Part shown: in pieces, positions 2,931 to 22,902 of the stretch | Layout of the letters: every line of letters begins with the position of its first letter | How positions within the stretch are numbered: the stretch's first letter is position 1 | Source: Nitrospirota bacterium | Lineage (GTDB): Bacteria; Nitrospirota; Thermodesulfovibrionia; UBA6902; DSMQ01 | Reading direction: 5' to 3' | Assembly (NCBI GenBank): GCA_016212185.1 | Contig: JACRGX010000052.1 | Span: forward strand, 1-32,917 | Length of the DNA stretch: 32,917 nt | The notes under the pieces: model-generated | Database searches by the model: none | Told to the model about the DNA's origin: nothing | Seen by the model: the letters and a program-made list of their open reading frames with translations, nothing else | Position numbers and translations under genes: made by a program

Positions 2931-3008
2931 GGTTCAACTTTGTTCAAGATAGTTTAAAAGGTTCAACGTTGAACAACATTAAACAAATTTAAACGATGTT
3001 GAACAAAA
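2931..3008. repeat. Palindromic TTGAAC array R1
   Basis: GTTCAA/GTTTAA units spaced 9-10 bases on the left (from 2931) switch to TTGAAC/TTAAAC units on the right, with the perfect palindrome GTTCAACGTTGAAC (2961-2974) at the centre. The array occupies nearly all of the gap between the SLH lipoprotein and LPP20 genes. Its last unit supplies an in-frame ATG at 2996 that is not the likely start of the next gene. Confidence 0.8.
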
Positions 3009-3028
3009 ATTTCAAAGGAGGTCTTATT

Positions 3029-3982
3029 ATGAAAAAAGTTCTTTTGATAATGATGTGTATTGTGCTCTTTGCAGTCAGCGCCGCAATGGGCGAAGAACAG
3101 CCGGCAGGCTCAGCTCCGGCAATGCCTTCAGCGCCTTCAATGCCGGACATTGATGCAAAGTTTCAGACTGTAAGCAAGTGGCTGAATCAGAATAATCTTA
3201 CCGTCACAACATCGCCCCAGCAGGCATTTGTAAATGACTATATCCTCGTTGCGGCTGAAGGGCTTCCGTCGCCAACAGCAACTTCACCTGCAAAGAAAAG
3301 ACTGACTGCTGAAAGGGCTGCAACCACCCTTGCATACCGCCAATTGGCAGAAATCCTTGAAGGCGTGGCAGTTGTCGGAGACACTCTGGTAAAGGATGCA
3401 GAGTTGCAATACGATGTGGTACGGGTGGCGGTTTCCGGGTTTGTCAAAGGCGCAAGGGTTGTTCAGAAGGAATACAATGAAAAAGAGGAGTCAGCGCTTG
3501 TAATAATGAAAATAGGCATGACAGGTCCCGGGAGTTTTGCAGATGCCCTTTATTCAAAGATTTTAAAACCCGATGTAAAAAAAGAACTCGTGGAACCGGA
3601 GTCTGCGCCTAAGTTTCAGCCCAAGCCTGTGCCGGTTGAAGAGAAATACGACGGGCTTATCATTGACGCCACAGAACAGAACTTCAGACCTGCTTTGATA
3701 AACAGGATTTTCACGCCTAAAGGCGAAATACTTTATGACCCTTCCAAAATAAGCCAGAAGGTGCTTGTGGAGCAGGGGTGCGGTGAATACACAAACAGCA
3801 CCGACAAGGCAAAGGCGGCGCTCGGCACAAGGGAAGTAAAAAATCCCCTTATCGTAAAAGCCTCCGGCACTGTATCGCCGTCAGACCTGCAGGTGTCGGA
3901 TGACGATGCAGTAAAGATTTTCTCGGCAAACCAGAAAGCGGGATTCCTTGCAGGCGCAAAGGTTGCTTTTGTATTAAAATAA
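3029..3982 (+). CDS. LPP20-family exported protein (FlgP-like)
   Basis: The start is the ATG at 3029, with AAAGGAGG 8 bases upstream; an in-frame ATG at 2996 lies in repeat R1 and lacks a ribosome-binding site. The 317-residue product has a signal peptide (about 1-21) followed by a Pro/Ala/Met-rich linker. The central region (LTAERAATTLAYRQLAEILEG, then VVGDTLVKD and VSGFVKGARVV) has the pattern of LPP20-type proteins, which include FlgP, an outer-membrane component of the flagellar basal disk/H ring. A C-terminal domain begins near YDGLIIDAT. There is no lipobox Cys, so it is probably soluble or ring-assembled in the periplasm. It precedes the second FlgT-like gene by 4 bases, matching the FlgP-FlgT partnership known elsewhere. 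Confidence 0.65.
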   Translation: MKKVLLIMMCIVLFAVSAAMGEEQPAGSAPAMPSAPSMPDIDAKFQTVSKWLNQNNLTVTTSPQQAFVNDYILVAAEGLPSPTATSPAKKRLTAERAATTLAYRQLAEILEGVAVVGDTLVKDAELQYDVVRVAVSGFVKGARVVQKEYNEKEESALVIMKIGMTGPGSFADALYSKILKPDVKKELVEPESAPKFQPKPVPVEEKYDGLIIDATEQNFRPALINRIFTPKGEILYDPSKISQKVLVEQGCGEYTNSTDKAKAALGTREVKNPLIVKASGTVSPSDLQVSDDDAVKIFSANQKAGFLAGAKVAFVLK

Positions 3983-3986
3983 AAGC

Positions 3987-5174
3987 ATGAAAGCAACTAC
4001 GTTTTTTTTAATAATCCTTGCCGCCATGGCATTGCTGTTTGCGGCTGAGAATTATTCATATGCCGGCGACAGCGTCATTGCAGAAGGATATGCGGTCATA
4101 ACCGGCGGCAAAAAAGATATAGCAAGGGATAAGGCATTAAGCGATGCATTCCGCAGGGCAATTGAACAGGTAGTCGGGGTAATGGTTGAATCTGAAACAG
4201 TAGTAAAAAACTTTGAACTTTTAAATGACAGAATTTATTCACAGACTGCCGGATACATAAAAAACTACAAAATTATAGATGAAAAGATTGAAGGCGACAC
4301 CCTCAGGCTGAAAATTGATGCGATTGTCGCAGTGACCAGCCTTGAAAAAGACCTTGATTCTGTCGGCATACTCATGCAAAGAGTCGGAAAACCGAGGCTC
4401 ATGCTGCTTATTGCCGAACAGAACATCGCAGATAAGCCGTCATACTGGTGGGGCGGTGATTCCATCAGCCTTGGAACTGCAGAGAGCATGCTTCTTCAAA
4501 AATTCATGGAAAAGGGCTTTACCATGGTAGACCGTCAGGTCGTCCTTGCAGGCTTAAGGAGCGACCCTGTTTTGTCACGCAACCTGGACTTTAATTTAAG
4601 CACTGATACTGCGCTGACGCTCGCCTCAATGGGAGAGGCGGAGGTGGTTGTTATAGGACAGGCGCTTGCAAAAGCAGGCCCCCCTATCGGAGAGACCTCC
4701 CTGCGCTCCTGTCAGGCAAATATATCTTCAAAGGTGATAAACGCTGATAATGGAGAGACCCTTGCATCGGTTTCCACTAATGCCAAATCTGTCAATATAG
4801 ACCCGGTTTCAGGCGGTGCAGAGGCATTAAAACAGGCGGCTTCTGATATGGGTGACAAGCTGATTTCCCAAATACTTGCGAAATGGCAAAAGCGCATCGG
4901 CGGAACACACACCATAAAGCTGATAGTATCGGGCCTGGATTTCAGCAGTATGGCCGATTTAAAAAGATTCCTTAAAGATAATCTCCGCGGCGTTGCAGAG
5001 ATTTATGAGCGGAGTTTCAGGGACGGCACCGCAAAGCTTGATATAGAGGTAAAAGGCAATGCAAAAGAAGCGGCTGAGGAATTAAGCAATAAAATATTCA
5101 ATAAAAACTTAATCGTAGTAACGTCGTTTACAGGCAATGTCATTAGCATTAAATTTACTACGGGTGGAGGTTAA
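3987..5174 (+). CDS. FlgT-like protein (second paralog)
   Basis: The 395-residue protein begins 4 bases after the LPP20 gene stop and lacks a good ribosome-binding site, which suggests translational coupling. It has a signal peptide (about 1-26), a FlgT_N domain (EGYAVI..., then AFRRAIEQVVGVMV and KNYKIIDEKI), a middle domain (about 135-300) and a C-terminal domain starting IKLIVSGLDF. Segment order, the EQVVGV motif and length match the gene at 386. The repeated pairing of FlgT-like with LPP20- and CsgG-like products implies a shared outer-membrane assembly. No flagellar role can be shown from this window. Confidence 0.7.
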   Translation: MKATTFFLIILAAMALLFAAENYSYAGDSVIAEGYAVITGGKKDIARDKALSDAFRRAIEQVVGVMVESETVVKNFELLNDRIYSQTAGYIKNYKIIDEKIEGDTLRLKIDAIVAVTSLEKDLDSVGILMQRVGKPRLMLLIAEQNIADKPSYWWGGDSISLGTAESMLLQKFMEKGFTMVDRQVVLAGLRSDPVLSRNLDFNLSTDTALTLASMGEAEVVVIGQALAKAGPPIGETSLRSCQANISSKVINADNGETLASVSTNAKSVNIDPVSGGAEALKQAASDMGDKLISQILAKWQKRIGGTHTIKLIVSGLDFSSMADLKRFLKDNLRGVAEIYERSFRDGTAKLDIEVKGNAKEAAEELSNKIFNKNLIVVTSFTGNVISIKFTTGGG

Positions 5175-5177
5175 ACA

Positions 5178-7166
5178 ATGAAAAATAAGGTTGTTATCCT
5201 GTTCGCATTTTTTGCGCTTGCTGTTTACGGCTGTGCAACGCCGGGGAAGGAAAGTTTTGATCTCGGGCAGGAGCTTGTCAAACACAACAGGTTTGAAGAA
5301 GCGACGTCAATGTTTGAAGATGCCATTAAAAAAGAGCCCGGCAATCCCGAATACATTTTTGCCTTTAAAAAAACCAGAAGCGCCTTATCGGCAAGATACG
5401 CACAGGGTGCAAAGGCAAAGTTCAGCCAGACTCCGCTTACTTTTGAACAGGTAAAGGTAGCATATCAGGAGGCGGAAAAAGCAAGCCAGCTTACGCCTGA
5501 TGACGAAGAAGTTTTAAAACTGCGGAACCTTATTAAGTCTGAATTGGACAGAATAGTAAAGACCGCCGAGAGCATGTATTCCGAGGCGTCAAAGACAATG
5601 ACGGAAAATAAATGGGTTGAGAGCATTAAGACATTAAAACAAATAAATGAAATGTACCCAAACTATCTTGATGTTGTAACAAAGATTAAGCAGGCTGAGG
5701 ACGAAGGTCTTTTCTATTACCTGAAGGATGCGGAAAAATTCAAGGAAACCGATGACTGGGAAAACGTCATGAAGACGCTTTCAGCCGCACGGGAAATTGT
5801 GCCTGACAATTCTGATATCATCGCCCGCATTGAAGACGCCAGAAGCAAAAACACACCTGATTATTTAATTGCAAAAACAGAGGAATTCGCCGCAAAAAAT
5901 GACTGGGACAAGGCAACTGCGCTTGCACGGCAGGCTTATATGATAAACCCTTCGGAGGATATAGGGCAGAAATCTGCAAAAATACAGCAGCAGGCAGGAG
6001 TTTTCTACATCAGCCGGTTCAGACAGCGCCTTTCGGAGAAACGTCTTTATGCGGCATACATGGATTTGACTACAGCCTTTAAATATAACCCTGCCGCAAA
6101 TAAAGAAAAAGAGGTGGCTGATGCCGTTAATCAGTTTATCGCCGGCATTATTTCAAAGGCAGAAGCCTTTGAGTCAAAAGGATATTTTGGCAATGCGCTG
6201 TCATGGTATGAAAAGGCGCTTGAGTTTAACCCTAAACACAAAGAATCTGTTTATAAAATCCAGGCGTTGAAAGACGGCATTAAGGAACGGGTTATCAAAA
6301 AAATTGCCATCATGGATTTCACATCGCCGAGCAATAAGCCTGATGTGGGCAAGATTGTGACAGACAACCTGCTGTCTTACATAACATCCAATGCAAGCAG
6401 CGACGTTAAGGTGCTCGCAAGGGACGTCCTCGGAGCCATCCTTAAAGAGATAGAATACGGACAGGCGGGCATTTATGACATTGAAAGCGCAAAAAAGGCA
6501 GGCAAGCTTAAAGGCACTGACATATTTATTTTCGGCAGTGTGCTTAATTACGATGTGGACAGAAATATTGCAGAAAGCTATCAGATGAAGAGCGTAGTAG
6601 TCGGCAAAAAATCCACGCCAAACCCCGCCTATCAGTTTTGGCTCATGTCGCAGAGAGGGACGGCAACTGAAGGCGATGTGAAGACTGCACCGCCTGCCAT
6701 GATAGAAGAAGACCTCAGGGAAACGATTAAATACAAAGTCGGCACTGAAAAAAAACTGGCAACGGTCGGCGTTTCTTTCAGGGTTATAGATGTGGAAGAG
6801 GGCGAGGTTGTTATCACAGAAACCCTGAAAGAGCAAAAAGAAGCAAAGGATGACTTCTCAGAGGGGGCTTCATTTGCAGATATCGTCTTTGACCCGCTTG
6901 AAATGCCGACAGACAGTGAACTGCTTCAGGCCGTAACGCAAAAGGTGGTTGAGAATCTGGGTTTTAAGGTGCTATCGCGCTTTCAGAACCTGCAGGTTCT
7001 GTACCATACCAATGCTGAAATGCTGAAAAAGAGAATGGAATACGAAAAGGCAATTGAAAAATATACGGACAGTATTTATGTTGAAGATATTAAAAACATC
7101 TCAAGCCCTCTTTCGGAAAATTCAAGAAAAGAGATAGAAAAACTACTTCAGCAGATTGAATCATAA
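5178..7166 (+). CDS. TPR lipoprotein with CsgG-like domain
   Basis: The gene starts 3 bases after the previous stop, with GGAGG overlapping that gene's end. The 662-residue product carries a lipobox (VYGC, Cys near residue 19). Residues about 25-370 are TPR-like helix pairs (FDLGQELVKHNRFEEATSMF and several later copies such as GNALSWYEKALEFNPKHKES). A CsgG-type domain begins near residue 375 (KKIAIMDF, then a TDNLLSYI helix, LARDVLGAILKE and GTDIFIFGSV). CsgG is the outer-membrane pore of curli secretion, and the same fold occurs in many outer-membrane ring lipoproteins. Here the TPR part probably recruits partners. No CsgA/B/E/F-like genes are seen, so curli export is not implied. Confidence 0.75.
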   Translation: MKNKVVILFAFFALAVYGCATPGKESFDLGQELVKHNRFEEATSMFEDAIKKEPGNPEYIFAFKKTRSALSARYAQGAKAKFSQTPLTFEQVKVAYQEAEKASQLTPDDEEVLKLRNLIKSELDRIVKTAESMYSEASKTMTENKWVESIKTLKQINEMYPNYLDVVTKIKQAEDEGLFYYLKDAEKFKETDDWENVMKTLSAAREIVPDNSDIIARIEDARSKNTPDYLIAKTEEFAAKNDWDKATALARQAYMINPSEDIGQKSAKIQQQAGVFYISRFRQRLSEKRLYAAYMDLTTAFKYNPAANKEKEVADAVNQFIAGIISKAEAFESKGYFGNALSWYEKALEFNPKHKESVYKIQALKDGIKERVIKKIAIMDFTSPSNKPDVGKIVTDNLLSYITSNASSDVKVLARDVLGAILKEIEYGQAGIYDIESAKKAGKLKGTDIFIFGSVLNYDVDRNIAESYQMKSVVVGKKSTPNPAYQFWLMSQRGTATEGDVKTAPPAMIEEDLRETIKYKVGTEKKLATVGVSFRVIDVEEGEVVITETLKEQKEAKDDFSEGASFADIVFDPLEMPTDSELLQAVTQKVVENLGFKVLSRFQNLQVLYHTNAEMLKKRMEYEKAIEKYTDSIYVEDIKNISSPLSENSRKEIEKLLQQIES

Positions 7167-7191
7167 ATCTTTGAGCAATGGGGAGGCTGCC

Positions 7192-9408
7192 ATGCAGAGA
7201 GCCGTTATTTTATATTTACTTGCAGCAATGCTGTTTGCTGCAGTAGGTATCGGACCATTACAGCCAACCCTTGCTGCTGCAACTAAACCAAGAATAGCAT
7301 TCCTCCTGTTTGTCCCGCAAAACATTGAAGCGACATCACTTATGGAAACCATTCCGACCGTTTTAACATCATCCGTCAACAGGAGCGGTCTTTTTGAGAT
7401 TATTGAAAGAAGAAAAATTGACAGGGAGGTTTTGCTTAAGGGCTACCAGATAAGCCGTCTCAAACCGCAGGAGATGCTTAATGTGGGCACCGCGCTCGGT
7501 TTTGATTTCAGCGTTTACGGGGATGTAAATAAGGACGGCGGAATTATAACAGTCTCAATTAAAGTGCTGGACATCAAGGCGCGGGAGCTATGTTTTGAAC
7601 AAAAAATAACTGTTTCAGAAGGCATGCTTAATGACAAATTAAATGAGATCTCCACTGCAGTTGTAAGCAGGACGCTTAAATGTTTTTCCGGAGCAGATGC
7701 CGTCAAAAAAGATGTCAAACCTTTGGAAATGCCGTACGAACTGCAGGCAATGCAGATTGACAAAAAAATCAGGCTTCAATGGCTGCATAAAAATGTGCAG
7801 GATGTCAGCGGATTTAAAGTTTACAAGGCAGATGAAAAAGACGGCATATATCAAATGGTCGGCGCAGTGCCGGAACTTAATTTTACAGATCAGAACCCCC
7901 CGCTGGATAAACCGGTCTTTTATAAAATTACAGCCGCATTCAAAAACGGAATGGAAAGCAGCCCCTCCAATATAGTTGAGGTGCGGTTTGCTATGGGCCC
8001 GCCGCCGCCGATATTCCTAAGCGTAGCGCCTGACATTAAATCAGCCCGGCTTAAATGGAAGGTGCACCCTGACTCTGAAATTTCAGAATGTAAGATTTAC
8101 AGAAAAGGGACGGCTGACAAAGAGTTTAAGGAGATAGCCTCCGTGCCTTATGACACAACAACATATACGGATAAGGGATTGGGCGACAACACCTCATATC
8201 AGTATGCGCTTTCTGCAGTTGATTCAAAGGGAACTCCGGGAGACCTGTCAACAATACTCAATACAACAACGATTAATGCGCCTTACGGGCTTAAGGCAGA
8301 AAGCGGAAAGATAAGACAAATACCTTTAATCTGGGATGTGCATTTTTCCGATGCAGTAGCGGGTTACCGCATCTACAGGCCCACGGATAAGGAATCCGGA
8401 TATAAAATTCTTTCCAATGTTCCCGGGAAAACGTCCAACAATTTCCTTGATAAAAAAGATATGGCTGATCTGACCACATATTGGTACAGGATTGCCGCTT
8501 ACAACAACGATGGAATGGAAACAGATATGTCTGACGCCGTATCGGCAACTACAAGAGATAAACCGCCTGTACCGCAGGGTTTTACCGCAAAAGACCGCGA
8601 ACCGAGAAAGGTTTCGCTAAAATGGGACCCTGTAAAAAGCCCGGCGGATGAAATTGTAAAATATGTAATCTCACGGTCCACTGAGGAAAAAGACGAATAC
8701 AAAAAAATAATTGAAATCAGCAATCCCGAATCAAACTCATTTATTGACAAGGAGCCTCCGCTGAAAGATAACACTGCCTACTATTATAAAATTGCATCTT
8801 ATAATTCCGCAGGCGTAAGCAGTGATGTATCCATGCCTGTGTCTTCTGTAACAAAAGCGCTTCCTTCGGCGCCGGCCGGTCTATCCGCAAAAAGCGGCGA
8901 GGTGAAACAGATTACGCTGACCTGGGAGCCAAACCAGGAGAAAGACATAAAGACGTATAACATTTACAGGGCAATCGGTGAAGATAATGATTTCAAAAAT
9001 ATTGCTTCTGTCAATGAGAGCAATTATGTGAATGCCGGACTTAAAGACGGCGCCAAATATACATATGTCATAGAGGCTGTTGATGCGGATAGCTTAATCA
9101 GCGAGAGGACCATCCCCGTACCCGCTATGACAAAACCTGTTCCGGCAAAGCCCGCAGGATTAAAGGTCTCTGTTGAAGACGGCAAAAAAATATTGCGCTG
9201 GGACGCCAACACTGAAAAAGATATTAAACAATATAACATTTACAAGAAAGGCTTTCTCGGGATATCACGCAAACTCGCAGAGGTTCGGGATACCTCATGG
9301 AGCATTGAAGAGACAAAGGGGAAACAGGAGCTCTTCATCACAGTCTTTGATGAAACAGGGCTTGAGAGCGAAAACTCTGAGTCTGTTTTGATAGAAGGGA
9401 AAAAGTAA
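7192..9408 (+). CDS. CsgG/FlgO-like exported protein with about six FN3 domains
   Basis: The ATG at 7192 is chosen because GGGGAGG lies 6 bases upstream; a TTG at 7156 would overlap the preceding gene. The 738-residue product has a signal peptide (about 1-30). An alpha/beta domain follows at about 32-165 (PRIAFLLFVPQ, IIERRKIDREVLLKG, LGFDFSVYGDVN), resembling FlgO/CsgG N-domains. From about residue 180 there are roughly six fibronectin type III repeats, each with a Trp-containing strand such as LTWEPN or LKWDPV, a YNIYR-like strand and a Y.Y.I.A strand. The FN3 chain suggests a long extended adhesin- or scaffold-like arm attached to a membrane-proximal head. This is the last gene of the tight 3029-9408 run. 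Confidence 0.72.
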   Translation: MQRAVILYLLAAMLFAAVGIGPLQPTLAAATKPRIAFLLFVPQNIEATSLMETIPTVLTSSVNRSGLFEIIERRKIDREVLLKGYQISRLKPQEMLNVGTALGFDFSVYGDVNKDGGIITVSIKVLDIKARELCFEQKITVSEGMLNDKLNEISTAVVSRTLKCFSGADAVKKDVKPLEMPYELQAMQIDKKIRLQWLHKNVQDVSGFKVYKADEKDGIYQMVGAVPELNFTDQNPPLDKPVFYKITAAFKNGMESSPSNIVEVRFAMGPPPPIFLSVAPDIKSARLKWKVHPDSEISECKIYRKGTADKEFKEIASVPYDTTTYTDKGLGDNTSYQYALSAVDSKGTPGDLSTILNTTTINAPYGLKAESGKIRQIPLIWDVHFSDAVAGYRIYRPTDKESGYKILSNVPGKTSNNFLDKKDMADLTTYWYRIAAYNNDGMETDMSDAVSATTRDKPPVPQGFTAKDREPRKVSLKWDPVKSPADEIVKYVISRSTEEKDEYKKIIEISNPESNSFIDKEPPLKDNTAYYYKIASYNSAGVSSDVSMPVSSVTKALPSAPAGLSAKSGEVKQITLTWEPNQEKDIKTYNIYRAIGEDNDFKNIASVNESNYVNAGLKDGAKYTYVIEAVDADSLISERTIPVPAMTKPVPAKPAGLKVSVEDGKKILRWDANTEKDIKQYNIYKKGFLGISRKLAEVRDTSWSIEETKGKQELFITVFDETGLESENSESVLIEGKK

Positions 9409-9422
9409 GGACCAACAGAGTT

Positions 9423-9640
9423 TAAATAGTTTAAATCGTTTAACATTGTTCAAGTTAAAAGACAAAGGCGTTCAAACAGTTTAAATCGTTTAACATTGTT
9501 CAAAGTTGAACGGCTTAAACTATTTAAACAATCTTGAACTTGTTGTTGTTATTGAACGGCTTAAACTATTTAAACAATCTTGAACTTGTTGTTGTTATTG
9601 AACGGCTTGAACGATTTAAACAATCTTGAACTTGTCTTTA
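9423..9640. repeat. Palindromic TTGAAC array R2 with 46-bp tandem units
   Basis: The left part has GTTTAA/GTTCAA units. The segment beginning AGTTTAAATCG occurs at 9428 and again 50 bases later at 9478. The right part inverts to TTGAAC/TTAAAC units arranged as two identical 46-bp copies (9508-9553, 9554-9599) and a diverged third (from 9600). Within each 46-mer the units recur every 9-10 bases. The segment around 9424-9476 is nearly identical to about 12297-12349 in array R3, so the arrays spread by duplication. The array lies between the FN3 gene and the small secreted-protein gene. Confidence 0.85.
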
Positions 9641-9665
9641 TGCCGTTATAAAGGGGGTAATAAAA

Positions 9666-9950
9666 ATGCGGTTAAACCTGCTTTTACTAATCACATTACT
9701 GACAATTTTATTAACAGGGAATGCAGTCTATGCCGAAACATCTGCTCCTGATTCTGAAATCGGGCGGTACCAGCTTTTTCAGGGGGCATACACAAGTTTT
9801 GATCTTAAAAGACAGCAGTCTTCCACTCAATCAGGCATATTCCTGCTGGATACAAAAACAGGGAAGGTTAAGAGGTATCTCAACAAAATAGACGAGGACG
9901 GTAAATACATTGAAACATGGGCGCCAACAGAGGTTGCCGCAGAAAAGTAA
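9666..9950 (+). CDS. Small exported protein of unknown function
   Basis: The 94-residue product has a signal peptide (about 1-23, cleavage after VYA) and a 70-residue mature part. GRYQLFQGAYTSFD is followed by a strand pair ending GIFLLDTKTGKVKRY, which looks like a single small beta-sheet domain of the kind that reports a value attached to a peptide (inference). AAAGGGGG precedes the ATG by about 7 bases. The gene is 23 bases from the large GNA1162-type lipoprotein gene, so the two are probably cotranscribed. I do not recognise the family. Confidence 0.65.
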   Translation: MRLNLLLLITLLTILLTGNAVYAETSAPDSEIGRYQLFQGAYTSFDLKRQQSSTQSGIFLLDTKTGKVKRYLNKIDEDGKYIETWAPTEVAAEK

Positions 9951-9973
9951 CTGTGTGAAAGGCGGGTAATCCT

Positions 9974-12259
9974 ATGAAAAAAATATTTTTTTCAATTTTA
10001 ACACTGGCGTTGATTACATCCTGTGCATTAAAAGAGGAAATAAAAAAAGATTTATCAGCTCCTGCCGTGCTGGCTGTGCCCGAAGAAGACCTTCCGCTTA
10101 CTGTTGCGGTAATGCCGTTTCAAAACGACACCCATGAAATCGGGATAGCAACTCAGGTGAGAAGGGCCTTTTACAACCATTTCAGCTCAAAGCCATACAG
10201 AGATGTTGAGCTTAATGTAATTGATGAAAAAGTTGTCCAGCTTGAGAAATCTTCAGGCAAAAGCGCCCTTGACATAAAACCCGAGGAGATGTGTCAGGCA
10301 TTGGACTGTGACGGGGTAGTCTACGGCAGGATTACTGATTATAAAAAGGTTTATGCGGCAGTCTATTCACAGCTCGGCGTAGAAGCCGAGGTCTGGATGG
10401 TCAACACAAAGACAGGCCAAGAAGTCTTAAGGATAAAAGACTCCGTAAGATACCATGAAGGCGGGGTGCCGATGTCTCCGCTTGGCGCCGTTATGACCGT
10501 CGTTTCCACGGCAATGAACATAAGGGAAATCCAGCAGGTCCGATTGGTCAATGAGCTGAGCTACAAATTTAATGAAAGAATCCCCTCCCCTAAAGGGCTG
10601 AAGACCGAGGACAGGCCGCTTATCAAAGAAATTCTTACAAATGTAAAAGAAGGGCCCTTCAGCAAAGGCAGAATTATCAGGGCTGGACTTGAAGGAGAGC
10701 CCGGACTAGTAGCCACCTTTGACATCGGCAACTTTAAAAAAGGCCTTCTCATGAAAGAGACAAAACCGGGCATCTACATGGGTGAATATCTTGTCATGCC
10801 CGGAGACAATACAAAAGATATGCCCATAATTGCATCTTTAAAAAGACCTGCTGGTTATGAAAGCCAATGGATTGATGTGAGCGGTTTTGTAACAATTGAT
10901 ACGACCGCGCCGCCGCAGGTAAAAGGCATCAGGGCAAAGGGATTTCAGGACAGGATAGAGATATCATGGGAGGCCCTAAAAAATATTCCTGACTTAAAGG
11001 GATATGCAGTATTAAGAAGCGAACAGCCTTTAAGCGGCTATGCCGAGAGCGCAAAAGTGGAATTAAATACATTTGAAGACAGGACGGCAAAGCCCGATAC
11101 TGCGTATTATTACAGGGTCACGGCATCTGACCAGACAGGCAATGAGTCAGAGCCTGCGGACGCAGTAACTGCGGCGCTTATGTCAAAAGAGCCTGTTTTG
11201 CTGAGCGGCGAGCTTAAGAAAGACACCGTCCTTGCCGGGATTTATATCGTAAAAGACGCATTTACAGTCCCAAAGGGATTGTCACTGTCAATAGCGCCTG
11301 AGACAAGAATAATGTTTGATGAAAATGCAGCGCTCGTTATCTATGGACGGACTGTTGTGGACGGAAAGGGCGCGCCTGTTGAATTCATCCCTTCAGGGGA
11401 TAAAAAATGGAAGGGGATAATCGCAGAGGGAGGTAATGTGACTGCCGCCGGTTTACGCATTAAAGGCGCGCTGACTGCAATGACTTTTAAAAACACAGAA
11501 GGACAGCTTGAAGACGGCGTGTTTTCGGATAATGAAACAGGAATTTTAATTTCAGGCACGCCGGCAGTAAGCCTCAAAGGTTTGACAATTTCAGGCAACA
11601 AGACCGGCATTGAACTGCAAAAGACAGATGCCAAAATTTCCCTAAGCAGCATCTTTCAAAACACTGACGGCATTGTAATAAGAGAGTTTTCAGGAGAGCT
11701 CAAAGACAATAATATTATTGACAACAGCAGGAATATTTTTTCCGAAGCCCCTGTGAAAATCTCAGCGAATTACCTGGGCTCCATAAACATTGATGAGATG
11801 AAAGTTAGCGGAATAAGCCTGACAAAAACCTATGACAACAAAATTCCTGACGGAAAAATCGTGGATGCCATTTCAAACCCATATGCCTCACTCTCACAGG
11901 AAGAAAGGCAGAAAAAGGCGCTGGAACTTATAATTGAAGCCGGCGGTTATTTCAGACAGAGCAATTACGGCAAGGCATCCAGCCGCTTTGAAGAGGCGCT
12001 CAAAGCATTTCCCACTGCTGACACTTACTACTATCTGGCCCTCAGTTATCAGGGCATGAAAGAGGATGAAAAGGCGCTGAAGTATCTGAAGGAAGGCGTT
12101 GAAAAATTCCCCAAGGATTCAACGCTCCAGAAAGCGCTGGGGCTGATGTATTATCAGGCGGGCAATGAAACAGATGCAAAGAAGGCATTTGAAGAGGTCA
12201 TAAGACTAAGCCCCGAGGACAGACAGGTGAAGTTTCTGCTTGAAAGGATGGGAAAGTAA
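9974..12259 (+). CDS. Lipoprotein: GNA1162-like, FN3, beta-helix and TPR domains
   Basis: The 761-residue product starts with a lipoprotein signal (ITSC, Cys near residue 17). Residues about 40-220 (LTVAVMPFQNDTHEIG, DGVVYGRITDY, and a long pattern ending MNIREIQQVRLVNELSYKF) resemble the GNA1162/DUF799 outer-membrane lipoprotein family, related in fold to CsgG/TolB-N-like domains. About 300-400 is one FN3 domain. About 405-610 is a right-handed parallel beta-helix with repeated LKGLTISGNKTGIEL-type rungs. About 650-761 holds TPRs (ADTYYYLALSYQGMKEDEKA). The chain combines a probable outer-membrane ring domain, spacer, carbohydrate- or polymer-type beta-helix and protein-binding repeats. It is probably part of the same envelope complex as its upstream neighbours. 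Confidence 0.72.
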   Translation: MKKIFFSILTLALITSCALKEEIKKDLSAPAVLAVPEEDLPLTVAVMPFQNDTHEIGIATQVRRAFYNHFSSKPYRDVELNVIDEKVVQLEKSSGKSALDIKPEEMCQALDCDGVVYGRITDYKKVYAAVYSQLGVEAEVWMVNTKTGQEVLRIKDSVRYHEGGVPMSPLGAVMTVVSTAMNIREIQQVRLVNELSYKFNERIPSPKGLKTEDRPLIKEILTNVKEGPFSKGRIIRAGLEGEPGLVATFDIGNFKKGLLMKETKPGIYMGEYLVMPGDNTKDMPIIASLKRPAGYESQWIDVSGFVTIDTTAPPQVKGIRAKGFQDRIEISWEALKNIPDLKGYAVLRSEQPLSGYAESAKVELNTFEDRTAKPDTAYYYRVTASDQTGNESEPADAVTAALMSKEPVLLSGELKKDTVLAGIYIVKDAFTVPKGLSLSIAPETRIMFDENAALVIYGRTVVDGKGAPVEFIPSGDKKWKGIIAEGGNVTAAGLRIKGALTAMTFKNTEGQLEDGVFSDNETGILISGTPAVSLKGLTISGNKTGIELQKTDAKISLSSIFQNTDGIVIREFSGELKDNNIIDNSRNIFSEAPVKISANYLGSINIDEMKVSGISLTKTYDNKIPDGKIVDAISNPYASLSQEERQKKALELIIEAGGYFRQSNYGKASSRFEEALKAFPTADTYYYLALSYQGMKEDEKALKYLKEGVEKFPKDSTLQKALGLMYYQAGNETDAKKAFEEVIRLSPEDRQVKFLLERMGK

Positions 12260-12272
12260 AAAAACAACGGCG

Positions 12273-12620
12273 TTCAATAAAAAGATAAAAGCGTTCAAAT
12301 AGTTTAAATCGTTTAACCTTGTTCAAGTTAAAAGACAACGGCGTTCAAGCTGTTCAACATTGTTTAACATGGTTCAAAATTGAACGGCTTAAACAATTTA
12401 AACAATGTTGAACCTGTTGTTTGCTGTTTTTGAACTGTTTAAACAATGTTAAACAATCTTGAACGGTATTTTTATAGCTTGAACAATCTTGAACTTGTAG
12501 TTTTGTTGAACGGATTAAACGATTTGAACAACGTTGAACGGTCTTTAGTAGTTTGAACAATTTTGAACCTGTAGTTGTTATTGAACTGCTTAAACAATGT
12601 TGAACAATCTTGAACCGCTT
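12273..12620. repeat. Palindromic TTGAAC array R3
   Basis: This fills almost the entire 379-base gap after the GNA1162-type gene. Left-arm GTTCAA/GTTTAA units run from 12273 to about 12379, including the GACAACGGCGTTCAA junction motif. Right-arm TTGAAC/TTAAAC units continue to about 12615, broken by T-rich spacers such as CTGTAGTTGTTATTG. Complementary arms such as GTTCAACATTGTTTAA and TTAAACAATGTTGAAC could form a cruciform or long RNA hairpin. The array ends just before the ribosome-binding site of the four-helix-bundle gene. Confidence 0.85.
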
Positions 12621-12638
12621 TTACTATACGGAGGTTTC

Positions 12639-13091
12639 ATGCTCGCAAAATATTTTGAAGACCTTGAAATATGGCAGCTATCAAGAAATATGACAAATGC
12701 AATTTACACTCTGACAAAAAATGAGCGGTTTGCAAAAGATTACGGACTTACAGACCAGATAAGAAGGGCGTCGGTTTCTGTAATGTCAAATATTGCCGAA
12801 GGCTTTGAGCGCGGAGGAAATCAGGAGTTTATCCAGTTTTTATATATTGCAAAAGGCTCCTGCGGCGAGGCAAGAACTCAGCTCTATATTGCATTGGATC
12901 AGGGATATGTTGATAAAGAGAAGTTCAATGAATTGTTTAATTCTTTCAAAAAACTATCTGTTATGATTAGCAATCTTATTGACCACTTAAAGGGAAGTAA
13001 ATTTAGAGGCGAAAAATACAAAAAACCTCCTGTAAAATCAATGCGTGAGGAAATGGAGGAAATAGAAAGAGAACTGGGGATAAAAAGATAA
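12639..13091 (+). CDS. Four-helix-bundle protein, S23/23S-intervening-sequence type
   Basis: The ATG at 12639 follows ACGGAGG by 6 bases; an upstream in-frame ATG at 12597 lies in repeat R3. The 150-residue protein has the family signature: FEDLEIWQLSRNM at the start, LTDQIRRASVSVMSNIAEGF in the middle and FIQFLYIAKGSCGEARTQL in helix three. This family includes proteins encoded within 23S rRNA intervening sequences and the structurally similar Avd of diversity-generating retroelements. Its molecular role outside those settings is unknown. A Lys-rich tail of about 30 residues (KYKKPPVKSMREEMEE) extends past the bundle. The gene lies between palindromic arrays R3 and R4, unlike any other gene here. 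Confidence 0.85.
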   Translation: MLAKYFEDLEIWQLSRNMTNAIYTLTKNERFAKDYGLTDQIRRASVSVMSNIAEGFERGGNQEFIQFLYIAKGSCGEARTQLYIALDQGYVDKEKFNELFNSFKKLSVMISNLIDHLKGSKFRGEKYKKPPVKSMREEMEEIERELGIKR

Positions 13092-13095
13092 CGGC

Positions 13096-13300
13096 GTTCA
13101 AGCTGTTCAAAATTGTTTAAAATGGTTCAAGATTGAACGGCTTGAACTATTTGAACCATGTTGAACCTGTTGTTGTTATTGAACGGCTTAAACTGCTTAA
13201 ACAATGTTGAACGGTCAGTTATAGATTTGAACTTGTAGTTATTGAACTGCTTAAACAATTTTGAACTTATAGTTAGTTTGAACAATCTTGAACCGTTCAT
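13096..13300. repeat. Palindromic TTGAAC array R4
   Basis: Same design as R2 and R3. A short left arm (ACGGCGTTCAAGC, then GTTCAA/GTTTAA units) runs from 13096. An inversion follows near 13131 at GATTGAACGG, then a longer run of TTGAAC/TTAAAC units with spacers such as CTGTTGTTGTTATTG. It starts within a few bases of the four-helix-bundle stop codon and ends just before the VapBC promoter. Confidence 0.82.
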
Positions 13301-13357: not shown

Positions 13358-13612
13358 ATGGAAACAGCAAAGCACAGAACGCAGATATCCCTTGAAGACT
13401 GGCAATATCAAATATTGCTTGAGATGTCAAAAAAGGAAAAAAAAAGCCTCTCCTGCATTATCAGAGAGTTTTTATCTGAAAAATTTTCAAAACAGGTTGT
13501 AAAAACAAAAAAAGATTCCGTGTGGAACATTATAGGTATTGGTTCCGGTGATGGGTCTCCTGTTGCAAGAGAGCATGACCAATTCCTGTATGCAAAAAGA
13601 AAAAAGAAGTGA
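13358..13612 (+). CDS. Ribbon-helix-helix antitoxin (VapB-like)
   Basis: The ATG at 13358 sits 7 bases after AGAGGTG; an in-frame GTG at 13349 falls within that site. The 84-residue protein begins with a beta strand (HRTQISLEDWQYQ) followed by two helices (ILLEMSKKEKK, SLSCIIREFLSEKF), the CopG/RHH DNA-binding layout. The tail around GIGSGDGSPVAREHDQFLY is typical of antitoxins that wrap the PIN toxin active site. Its TGA stop overlaps the toxin's GTG start, so the two are translationally coupled. It is expected to neutralise the toxin and repress the shared promoter. Confidence 0.75.
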   Translation: METAKHRTQISLEDWQYQILLEMSKKEKKSLSCIIREFLSEKFSKQVVKTKKDSVWNIIGIGSGDGSPVAREHDQFLYAKRKKK

Positions 13613-19233: not shown

Positions 19234-19263
19234 TTGACTAATAAAAGTTTATTCTGCTATGCT
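19234..19263 (+). promoter_or_regulatory. Promoter for the fluoride riboswitch transcript
   Basis: TTGACT (19234-19239) and TATGCT (19258-19263) are separated by 18 bases. This places the transcription start near the first bases of the riboswitch aptamer at about 19268, as expected for a short leader RNA. Confidence 0.55.
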
Positions 19264-19267
19264 TTGG

Positions 19268-19327
19268 ACAGGCGATGGAGTTCGCTATTGACCGTCTCAA
19301 AGTTCCGGGACTGATGACTCCTACTTT
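19268..19327 (+). promoter_or_regulatory. Fluoride riboswitch (crcB motif)
   Basis: The conserved parts of the crcB motif appear in order: GGCGATGGAGTTCGCT (19271-19286), a GACCG junction, a short hairpin GTCTC...GGGAC, and CTGATGACTCCTAC (19311-19324). The GGAGT loop (19277-19281) can pair with ACTCC (19317-19321), forming the characteristic pseudoknot. Fluoride riboswitches turn on fluoride exporters and protective genes, and cation:proton antiporters are among known regulated genes. It lies directly upstream of such an antiporter. Confidence 0.88.
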
Positions 19328-19362
19328 ATTGGTAAACTTTACTGATAAGGCAGGAGTTTTTT
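19317..19362 (+). terminator. Riboswitch-controlled intrinsic terminator
   Basis: ACTCCTaCTTTAT pairs with ATAAGGcAGGAGT, followed by six T residues (19357-19362). The left arm reuses the ACTCC strand of the aptamer pseudoknot, so fluoride-bound aptamer and terminator are mutually exclusive. This is a transcriptional ON switch. The antiporter ATG follows about 20 bases later. Confidence 0.8.
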
Positions 19363-19382: not shown

Positions 19383-20564
19383 ATGGCAATAAGTTTTGCG
19401 CTCATCATACTTTTGGGGCTGTTTTCCGATTATCTGTTTAAGAGGCTGCGCCTTCCCGGGCTTATCGGGATGCTCCTTGCCGGCATATTTTTAGGGCCTT
19501 ATGTATTTAATGTTATTGACCCCGCCCTGATAACAGTATCCGCGGATTTCAGGATGCTGGCCCTCGTAGTCATTCTCCTCAGGGCTGGATTTGCCGTAAA
19601 AAGAGATACTCTTAACAAAGTGGGCAGGCGTGCTGTAATAATGGGGTTCACGCCTGCCGTGTTTGAGGGCGCGGTGATTGCCCTTACAGCACCGATATTT
19701 TTCAGCATAAGTTTTTTTGAAGCCGCCCTGTTAGGCTCTGTCATTGCCGCCGTCTCACCGGCAGTCGTAGTGCCTTCAATGCTGAAATTTATTGAGGACC
19801 ACCGCGGGACAAAAAAAGGCATCCCAACATTACTGCTCGCATCCTCGTCTTTGGACAATGTATTCGTGATAGTAATATTTTCAGCGCTCATCGGCATATA
19901 CGAGGGGGAAAATACAAACATTTTTTTAAAACTTTTAGAAATACCGGTTTCCGTCGCTGTGGGCATTATCACCGGGGCTGTAATCGGATTTGCATTGTAT
20001 AAACTTTTTGAAATATATAAGCCGAGGGCCACCAAAAAAACTTTGATTGTCATAGGAACCGCAGTACTACTCACCTGGCTTGAAAAAATCCTTAGACCTT
20101 TTGCACCGCTTTCAGCGATTTCCGGCATCATAGCAATAGGATTTATCATGCTTGAAAAATCCGAGCCCATCGCCCATGTGATATCCCTGAAACTCGGCAA
20201 GATATGGGTGTTTGCAGAAATACTTCTCTTCGTCATGGCCGGCGCACAGGTTGATATTAATACGGCATTGGAAGCAGGCCTGGCAGGCGCCGCGGTCATA
20301 CTTTTGGGTTTACTGGCAAGGAGCGCCGGCACATATGTATCCCTCATAAAGAGCGGCTTAAATTCAAAAGAGAAGTTATTCTGTATTGTCTCATATATTC
20401 CAAAGGCAACGGTGCAGGCGGCAGTCGGCGCCGTGCCTCTTTCCATCGGGGTTAAATCAGGCGGTATAATCCTTGCCGTTGCAGTCTTATCAATTATTTT
20501 TACCGCACCGCTCGGCGCCATCGGGATGAATATTGCGGGAGAAAAGATATTCGGGAAAGATTAG
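19383..20564 (+). CDS. Cation:proton antiporter (CPA family), fluoride-regulated
   Basis: The ATG follows GGAGGG by 7 bases. The 393-residue protein is hydrophobic throughout with about 11-12 membrane segments and the NhaP/CPA layout: YLFKRLRLPGLIGMLLAGIFLGP near the N terminus, then an LRAGFAVKRDTL loop, AAVSPAVVVPSML and LLASSSLDNVFVIV in the core. It probably exchanges Na+ or another cation (or fluoride-linked ions) for protons across the inner membrane. Riboswitch control suggests a role in fluoride resistance or in the pH and ion stress it causes. There is no cytoplasmic TrkA-type regulatory domain. The MFS gene 23 bases downstream is probably on the same transcript. Confidence 0.85.
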   Translation: MAISFALIILLGLFSDYLFKRLRLPGLIGMLLAGIFLGPYVFNVIDPALITVSADFRMLALVVILLRAGFAVKRDTLNKVGRRAVIMGFTPAVFEGAVIALTAPIFFSISFFEAALLGSVIAAVSPAVVVPSMLKFIEDHRGTKKGIPTLLLASSSLDNVFVIVIFSALIGIYEGENTNIFLKLLEIPVSVAVGIITGAVIGFALYKLFEIYKPRATKKTLIVIGTAVLLTWLEKILRPFAPLSAISGIIAIGFIMLEKSEPIAHVISLKLGKIWVFAEILLFVMAGAQVDINTALEAGLAGAAVILLGLLARSAGTYVSLIKSGLNSKEKLFCIVSYIPKATVQAAVGAVPLSIGVKSGGIILAVAVLSIIFTAPLGAIGMNIAGEKIFGKD

Positions 20565-21944: not shown

Positions 21945-22902
21945 AAGTGGGGTCAGGTCTTTAATTTTACTATTTTGTCTTAAATATGCATAATATATCT
22001 CATGGCGAGACCGTTAAGAATAGAATACGATGGGGCTTTGTATCACATTACATCACGCGGTAATGAAAAAAAGCCCATCTATAAGGACGACACAGACCGC
22101 AATATCTTTCTTGATGCACTTCACAAGGTAAACAAGAGATACAACTGGATATGCCATGGTTATTGTCTGATGAATAACCATTACCATCTTATGATTGAAA
22201 CCCCTGACGGCAATCTTTCAAAGGGAATGCGGCAGTTGAATGGCGTATATACTCAAATATTCAACAATAAACACAACCGCGTAGGTCATATATTCCAAGG
22301 CAGATACAAGGCGATACTTATACAGAAGGAAAATCATTTGCTTGAGGTATGCCGGTATGTAGTGTTAAACCCTGTACGTGCAAAGTCCGTAGAAGGCATT
22401 AAAGATTGGAAGTGGAGCAGTTACCACGCAACAGCAGGGATTGAAAAATCTCATTCTTGTTTGACAACAGACTGGATATTAGGTCAATTTGCACAGAAGA
22501 AGGGGGCAGCGGAGAAGAAATACAGGGAATTCGTAGAGGCCGGGACAGGGGAAAAAACAATATGGGAAGATATTAAGGGTCAGAGCATTCTCGGAAGTAA
22601 TGAGTTTGTAGAAAATTTAATTGGATATGTAAAAGGACATGAGGACATTAAAGAAATACCAAAATGCCAGAGGCATATAAATAGACCTGCACTTAAAGAA
22701 ATCTTTAATAAAGAAATATCGTTGAATAAAAAATATAGGAACAAACATATAAAAGAGGCTGTTAACAAATTTGGTTACACCCAAAAGGAAGTTGCAGATT
22801 CCCTCGGATTGTTTTATACAACAATTAGCAGAATTGTAAATGATAAACAGTAAAAGTAAAGACCTGACCCCACTTCTTACAAGACCTGACCCCACTTCTT
22901 AC
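21945..22902 (+). mobile_element. RAYT transposase unit with inverted-repeat ends
   Basis: AAGTGGGGTCAGGTCTTTA at 21945-21963 is the exact inverse of TAAAGACCTGACCCCACTT at 22857-22875. They flank a single transposase gene. On the right the 22-base unit 22859-22880 (AAGACCTGACCCCACTTCTT plus AC) is repeated in tandem at 22881-22902. The unit abuts a truncated radical-SAM pseudogene on its right, consistent with insertion damage. Such boundaries fit REP-like sequences accompanying a RAYT gene. Confidence 0.8.
22002..22853 (+). CDS. REP-associated tyrosine transposase (RAYT, Y1_Tnp/HUH)
   Basis: The 283-residue protein has the typical N terminus MARPLRIEYDGALYHITSRG, the HUH motif His60-Tyr61-His62 (NNHYHLMIE) and the catalytic Tyr119 (CRYVVLNPVRA). 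FQGRYKAILI lies between them. Such enzymes cut and rejoin single-stranded hairpin DNA (REP elements) and may be domesticated. A C-terminal helix-turn-helix (about 250-283, GYTQKEVADSLGLFYTTISR) is a DnaA/HTH-like extension seen in some RAYT groups. All key residues are intact. No strong ribosome-binding site is evident before the ATG. Confidence 0.88.
   Translation: MARPLRIEYDGALYHITSRGNEKKPIYKDDTDRNIFLDALHKVNKRYNWICHGYCLMNNHYHLMIETPDGNLSKGMRQLNGVYTQIFNNKHNRVGHIFQGRYKAILIQKENHLLEVCRYVVLNPVRAKSVEGIKDWKWSSYHATAGIEKSHSCLTTDWILGQFAQKKGAAEKKYREFVEAGTGEKTIWEDIKGQSILGSNEFVENLIGYVKGHEDIKEIPKCQRHINRPALKEIFNKEISLNKKYRNKHIKEAVNKFGYTQKEVADSLGLFYTTISRIVNDKQ

Follow-up and report, generated by a model that had tools for sequence, protein, structure and literature searches.

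The 32,917-nucleotide stretch of Nitrospirota DNA that we analysed, here called the window, carries four arrays (R1 to R4) of an imperfect palindrome built from the hexamer GTTYAA and its inverse TTRAAC. Such arrays lie mostly between co-directional genes just past a stop codon, are dispersed throughout the genome, are present or absent at the same gap in sister species, and keep their hexamers while the bases between them drift. Our best reading, drawn by analogy, is that they may form a new REP/BIME-like family of intercistronic hairpins without a linked RAYT. Whether these dispersed palindromes act post-transcriptionally between cistrons, with the hexamers kept by recognition, we judge to be an evenly balanced question. 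Our search of the literature found no description of a GTTYAA array family.

Four inverted hexamer arrays in the window

All four arrays are on the + strand and share one layout, with GTTYAA units on the left and TTRAAC units on the right, spaced 9-10 nt apart around a 2-nt centre. R1 (2932-3004) is a canonical array, with four left and four right units around the centre CG; it begins 13 nt past the stop codon ending at 2918, and the next start is at ~3029. R2 (9420-9631), which lies 11 nt past the stop ending at 9408 with the next start at 9666, is compound: it has two left and three right arms, and the right arm recurs as ~46-nt units. R3 (12272-12615) is also compound, with 30 hexamers, beginning 12 nt past the stop ending at 12259 and ending before a GGAGG and a start at ~12639. 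R4 (13096-13293), a compound array of 18 hexamers, begins 4 nt past the stop ending at 13091. Between R3 and R4 is a four-helix-bundle gene (23S rRNA IVP, S23, PF05635; 12639-13091, + strand). The order of arms is constant, left arm first and right arm second (>>..<< polarity), and the apparent '<>' neighbours, mostly 7 nt apart, are probably self-palindromic GTTTAAAC units, whose expected spacing they match. In R2-R4 the arms are joined via spacers such as TTGTTGTTGTTA and GACAAAGGC, and the three arrays resemble one another over 120-230 nt (R2/R3, 81% over 228 nt; R2/R4, 85% over 123 nt). The window has 12 runs of at least four hexamers spaced no more than 12 nt apart, none arose in any of 30 dinucleotide shuffles, and chance is ruled out as the source of R1-R4. 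The original prediction had described four arrays of inverted units at this spacing, a likeness among R2-R4 and an absence of arrays from the remainder of the window, all of which we recovered; four arrays per 10 kb is a dense cluster.

R1-R4 contain no terminator-like site (a GC-rich stem followed by a T-run), and an Rfam scan of the window gave no match to the arrays. The sole match at gathering score was a fluoride riboswitch (RF01734, 44.3 bits) at 19262-19330, directly 5' of a gene of the PF00999 Na+/H+ exchanger family (19383-20564), a candidate that could be a fluoride-responsive transporter. Just past R4, a small ORF without a Pfam match (13358-13612) precedes a PIN-domain gene (PF01850, 13609-14013), and the two are possibly a toxin-antitoxin pair; this region is missing in the sister species.

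Arrays are dispersed over the genome and patchy among relatives

The arrays had been thought confined to the envelope cluster, and the idea had been raised that they mark particular operons. Neither view survived the genome-wide search. GTTYAA pair matches numbered 164 compared to 5 in a reversed control, and strict triple-unit matches 115 compared to 0, spread over many contigs, while the genes flanking arrays elsewhere (cobalamin synthesis, leuA, ilvH, dnaJ, thiS and CBS-domain genes) have unrelated functions. The source genome is an uncultivated Nitrospirota MAG, and our catalogue of arrays was assembled from pattern searches and fetched stretches covering ~0.72 Mb of its 2.33 Mb. The distribution among relatives is patchy: arrays are carried by 19 of the 41 nearest genomes (source genome included) and, phylum-wide, by 38 of 296, most of which belong to the same class and have far lower copy numbers. 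A protein of the envelope cluster is found at 94% identity in the groundwater Nitrospirae MAG JACQZD01; this MAG and the same-genus genome G001 gave identical match counts and positions and were handled as one genome. Matches to a 4-unit pattern among viral contigs were set aside, since TTGAACNNN repeats may equally be coding.

Arrays occupy gaps within operons

Gene context was sampled over 427 kb, with genes called by a simple ORF heuristic that leaves start codons uncertain. In this sample 39 gaps had arrays, 35 of them co-oriented, 4 convergent and none divergent, compared to 81 co-directional, 13 convergent and 32 divergent among non-periodic gaps (divergent, 0/39 versus 32/126, p=1e-4). 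In the co-directional gaps with arrays, the first unit followed the stop codon by a median of 8 nt (no more than 15 nt in 32 of 35), and the last unit preceded the next start, as called, by a median of 19 nt. Because the arrays sit in co-oriented gaps, close to the stop codon, and end before the next start, they are intercistronic and not promoter elements. A few arrays lie within reading frames (cobQ, cobC), and for these an intercistronic role is impossible because of that location. At the cobalamin genes (L098:1607-7813), short arrays and other palindromic repeats are in frame in variable loops of the CobQ, CbiA and phosphatase genes, and in relatives these loops contain other repeat-like inserts. 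The CobQ array no longer counts as a clear in-frame insertion, since all relatives have a variable loop at this place and the residues aligned with one 4-unit match look native. Between CDP-alcohol phosphatidyltransferase and leuA-type genes (L103:4503-6873, L106, L109), a GTTYAA array is found in both same-genus genomes and in G009 (another family); the two genes nearly overlap in several relatives.

Arrays differ between sister species and their hexamers are conserved

The R2 gap is 257 nt in the window compared to 23 nt in the sister species, where 232 bp are absent and leave a clean empty site. In place of the region from R3 through the S23 gene and R4 to the PIN-domain gene, the sister species has another gene, and its R1 gap holds an unrelated array. 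At other loci, arrays are inherited and can be aligned between the sister species. By this comparison, arrays are evidently gained and lost as blocks in short intra-operon gaps. Orthologous arrays differed at 1 of 218 fixed hexamer sites, 20 of 200 spacer sites and 7 of 40 Y/R bases (fixed hexamer versus spacer, p=3.5e-6), at loci that were partly found by hexamer matches in the sister species. With the locus-finding stretches removed, the contrast between hexamer and spacer persists but is weaker (1/50 versus 13/112, p=0.07; or 0/49 versus 12/111, p=0.02).

Arrays fold, with no sign of selection for perfect stems

Arrays had a mean folding z of -2.9 relative to shuffles, compared to -1.5 for non-periodic gaps; they fold better than shuffles because the hexamers are inverted. 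Sense and antisense folding were nearly equal (the sense strand had the lower energy in 26 arrays and the higher in 12), and an RNA strand preference was set aside, the signal being weak (p=0.04). Compensatory changes at the Y/R base were sought in 15 canonical arrays and there were none: opposing bases were paired at random, with 36 Watson-Crick pairs observed and 35.6 expected, and 11 C.A pairs observed and 11.0 expected. In the same arrays opposing spacers showed no complementarity, and of 42 opposing pairs 30 differed in spacer length, as did 13 of the 15 innermost ones (p=0.013). Which Y/R base is present depends on where in the arm the unit lies (C at the centre, T in the second unit, C in the outer ones), and arrays were found with their 9-nt and 10-nt arms in either orientation. 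Without compensatory Y/R pairing, it is the motif that is conserved rather than perfect base-pairing, and the Y/R pattern points to a motif and to common descent from a slightly asymmetric ancestor, not to selection of a perfect stem. The proposal that selection acts on a cruciform or hairpin with perfect pairing thus finds no support, as opposing bases do not covary and opposing spacers are unequal and non-complementary. A looser form of the proposal, that the arrays are hairpins in transcripts, fits their position (within operons, past the stop codon, in no divergent gap) and a folding energy below that of other gaps.

Operon gaps hold arrays of unrelated units

A unit-blind scan of 216 gaps in the source genome, a sample enriched for GTTYAA arrays, found a 7-10-nt periodic array in 63, compared to 1 in shuffles (~29% of 40-600-nt gaps). 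The same scan found arrays in 0 of 19 gaps of E. coli and in 0-42% of gaps of relatives, the 42% sample having been partly chosen for arrays. Other units included GTGAACA, GGTCAAG/CTTGAACC, GTTATTA, GAGTTAA and GCGTTATA, and an inverted partner arm was frequent. We compared 99 orthologous gaps between the two sister species; in 10, the R1 gap included, the two genomes hold arrays that cannot be aligned. In only one of these ten pairs were GTTYAA units present on both sides, and therefore nine are unit swaps; a significant hairpin (z below -2) was found in 11 of the 20 members of the ten pairs. Operon gaps with palindromic arrays of different units in both sister species are at L401:12862-12963, L071:12179-12293, L402:11897-12020 and L103:2052-2131. 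With inherited arrays excluded, 17 co-directional gaps carry an array in the source genome, and in 10 of them the sister carries one too; of 51 such gaps that are array-free in the source genome, 2 have an array in the sister (p=3.5e-6, or p=0.0017 when gaps shorter than 35 nt are dropped). This suggests that gap position and layout outlast the unit sequence. Fast turnover in a permissive subset of gaps would also produce this contrast, and active replacement is hypothetical.

We speculate, with considerable doubt, that some operon gaps are fixed palindrome slots, in which the layout is kept and the unit is replaced wholesale between sister species. What would unite such arrays as a class is their architecture and position, not their sequence, and some cell factor would read each unit. 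If the slot is conserved and the unit swapped, each such operon would offer a natural replacement experiment with one intercistronic hairpin exchanged for another, and the role of REP-like elements in operons could be tested by comparing them.

Discussion

A typical element has a hexamer every 9-10 nt, four per arm, over ~70 nt, and fills the stretch that begins just past the stop codon of the gene upstream and ends shortly ahead of the ribosome-binding site of the gene downstream. Since it lies between these two points, it should be co-transcribed in the polycistronic mRNA, with transcription presumably running through the array. A folded array past the stop codon would most likely separate the cistrons in the manner of REP/BIME elements, by affecting 3'-5' decay, re-initiation or the release of ribosomes. 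We draw this likeness because of the position near stop codons: E. coli REPs no more than 15 nt from a stop codon reportedly stall ribosomes and lower translation (PMC12306157). The effect would presumably be on translation or mRNA stability, amounting to post-transcriptional insulation or tuning between cistrons, and the hexamers would be retained via recognition by some factor. Counting against this reading are the near-equal folding of the two strands, the random pairing of Y/R bases, the finding of 9-nt and 10-nt arms in either orientation, and the few arrays within reading frames.

The main rival, which we consider somewhat unlikely, is that the arrays are selfish or neutral palindromic repeats that copy into gaps where they do little harm, so that the post-stop position reflects tolerance of insertion. 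Gain and loss between sister species is what such repeats would produce, several unrelated families occupy the same gaps, arrays are present in in-frame protein loops, and the distances from stop to array and from array to start sum to an ordinary short operon gap. However, after insertion the fixed hexamer bases are kept while spacers and Y/R bases drift, and no transposase is linked to the arrays; none of the six Y1_Tnp genes in the genome has an array within flanks of ~1.5 kb, and a RAYT link was rejected. One of the six, a Y1 transposase with a C-terminal HTH, is in the window at 22002-22853, with no GTTYAA array nearby. Hexamers that are conserved while the Y/R base and the spacers vary freely are also what would be seen if the arrays were sites for a DNA-binding protein, one per helical turn, with the polarity inverting at the centre; the 9-10-bp spacing and the unvarying >>..<< polarity agree with this, and the earlier suggestion of protein-binding arrays is compatible with these data to the extent that a protein could recognize the hexamer sequence. 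We nevertheless regard DNA sites as improbable, since placement past stop codons within operons and in no divergent gap is odd for DNA regulatory sites, and the mixture of 9 and 10 spacing breaks exact helical phase.

Two explanations specific to this locus are far less probable still. The density of arrays in this cluster would suit arrays that mark the envelope operon for regulation, a role that is refuted by the genome-wide map, with arrays at many loci of unrelated function, and that hardly fits a sister species whose envelope operon has neither R2 nor the R3-R4 region and has a different array at R1. Equally remote is the view that the arrays are the ends of a mobile unit with the S23/IVP gene. 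That gene is flanked by R3 and R4 and the whole region is missing in the sister species, but arrays are near only one of five PF05635 genes in the genome and elsewhere flank ordinary genes, and we rejected this gene as a general partner of the arrays.

Comparison with known repeat families

The reading that we prefer, an intercistronic palindrome acting post-transcriptionally, is closest in position to REP/BIME of enterobacteria and pseudomonads, which are likewise palindromic, dispersed, often intercistronic, often no more than 15 nt from a stop codon, and form compound arrays. Like them, the arrays are dispersed, intergenic and often immediately downstream of stop codons. REP/BIME have a single GC-rich stem, whereas the arrays have arms of repeated hexamers at 9-10 nt. 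Inspection of the flanks of R1-R4, these four only, for a GTAG/GTGG or CGTC tag gave no common tag, and by RAYT linkage and tag the arrays are not REP/BIME members. As in MITEs such as ERIC and Correia, the palindromes are non-coding and, like MITEs among strains, vary in presence and absence; at the one site inspected, the empty and filled R2 gap, there were no clear terminal repeats and a duplication of at most 2 bp. Rickettsia palindromic elements are ~150 bp long and encode a conserved peptide, and some are inside reading frames (PMC10969869). The arrays resemble them in being palindromic with some copies in frames (cobQ/cobC, variable loops), but are mostly intercistronic, and their coding cases are short. 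The nearest precedent for a short unit is the TAACTGA heptamer repeats of marine Beggiatoaceae, a short intergenic unit with a patchy distribution at many unrelated genes (PMC4679880). These heptamers are direct repeats that mostly end right upstream of a start codon, and a post-transcriptional role has been proposed for them (PMC4679880), whereas the GTTYAA/TTRAAC units are inverted and spaced 9-10 nt apart, with the first unit at the upstream stop codon.
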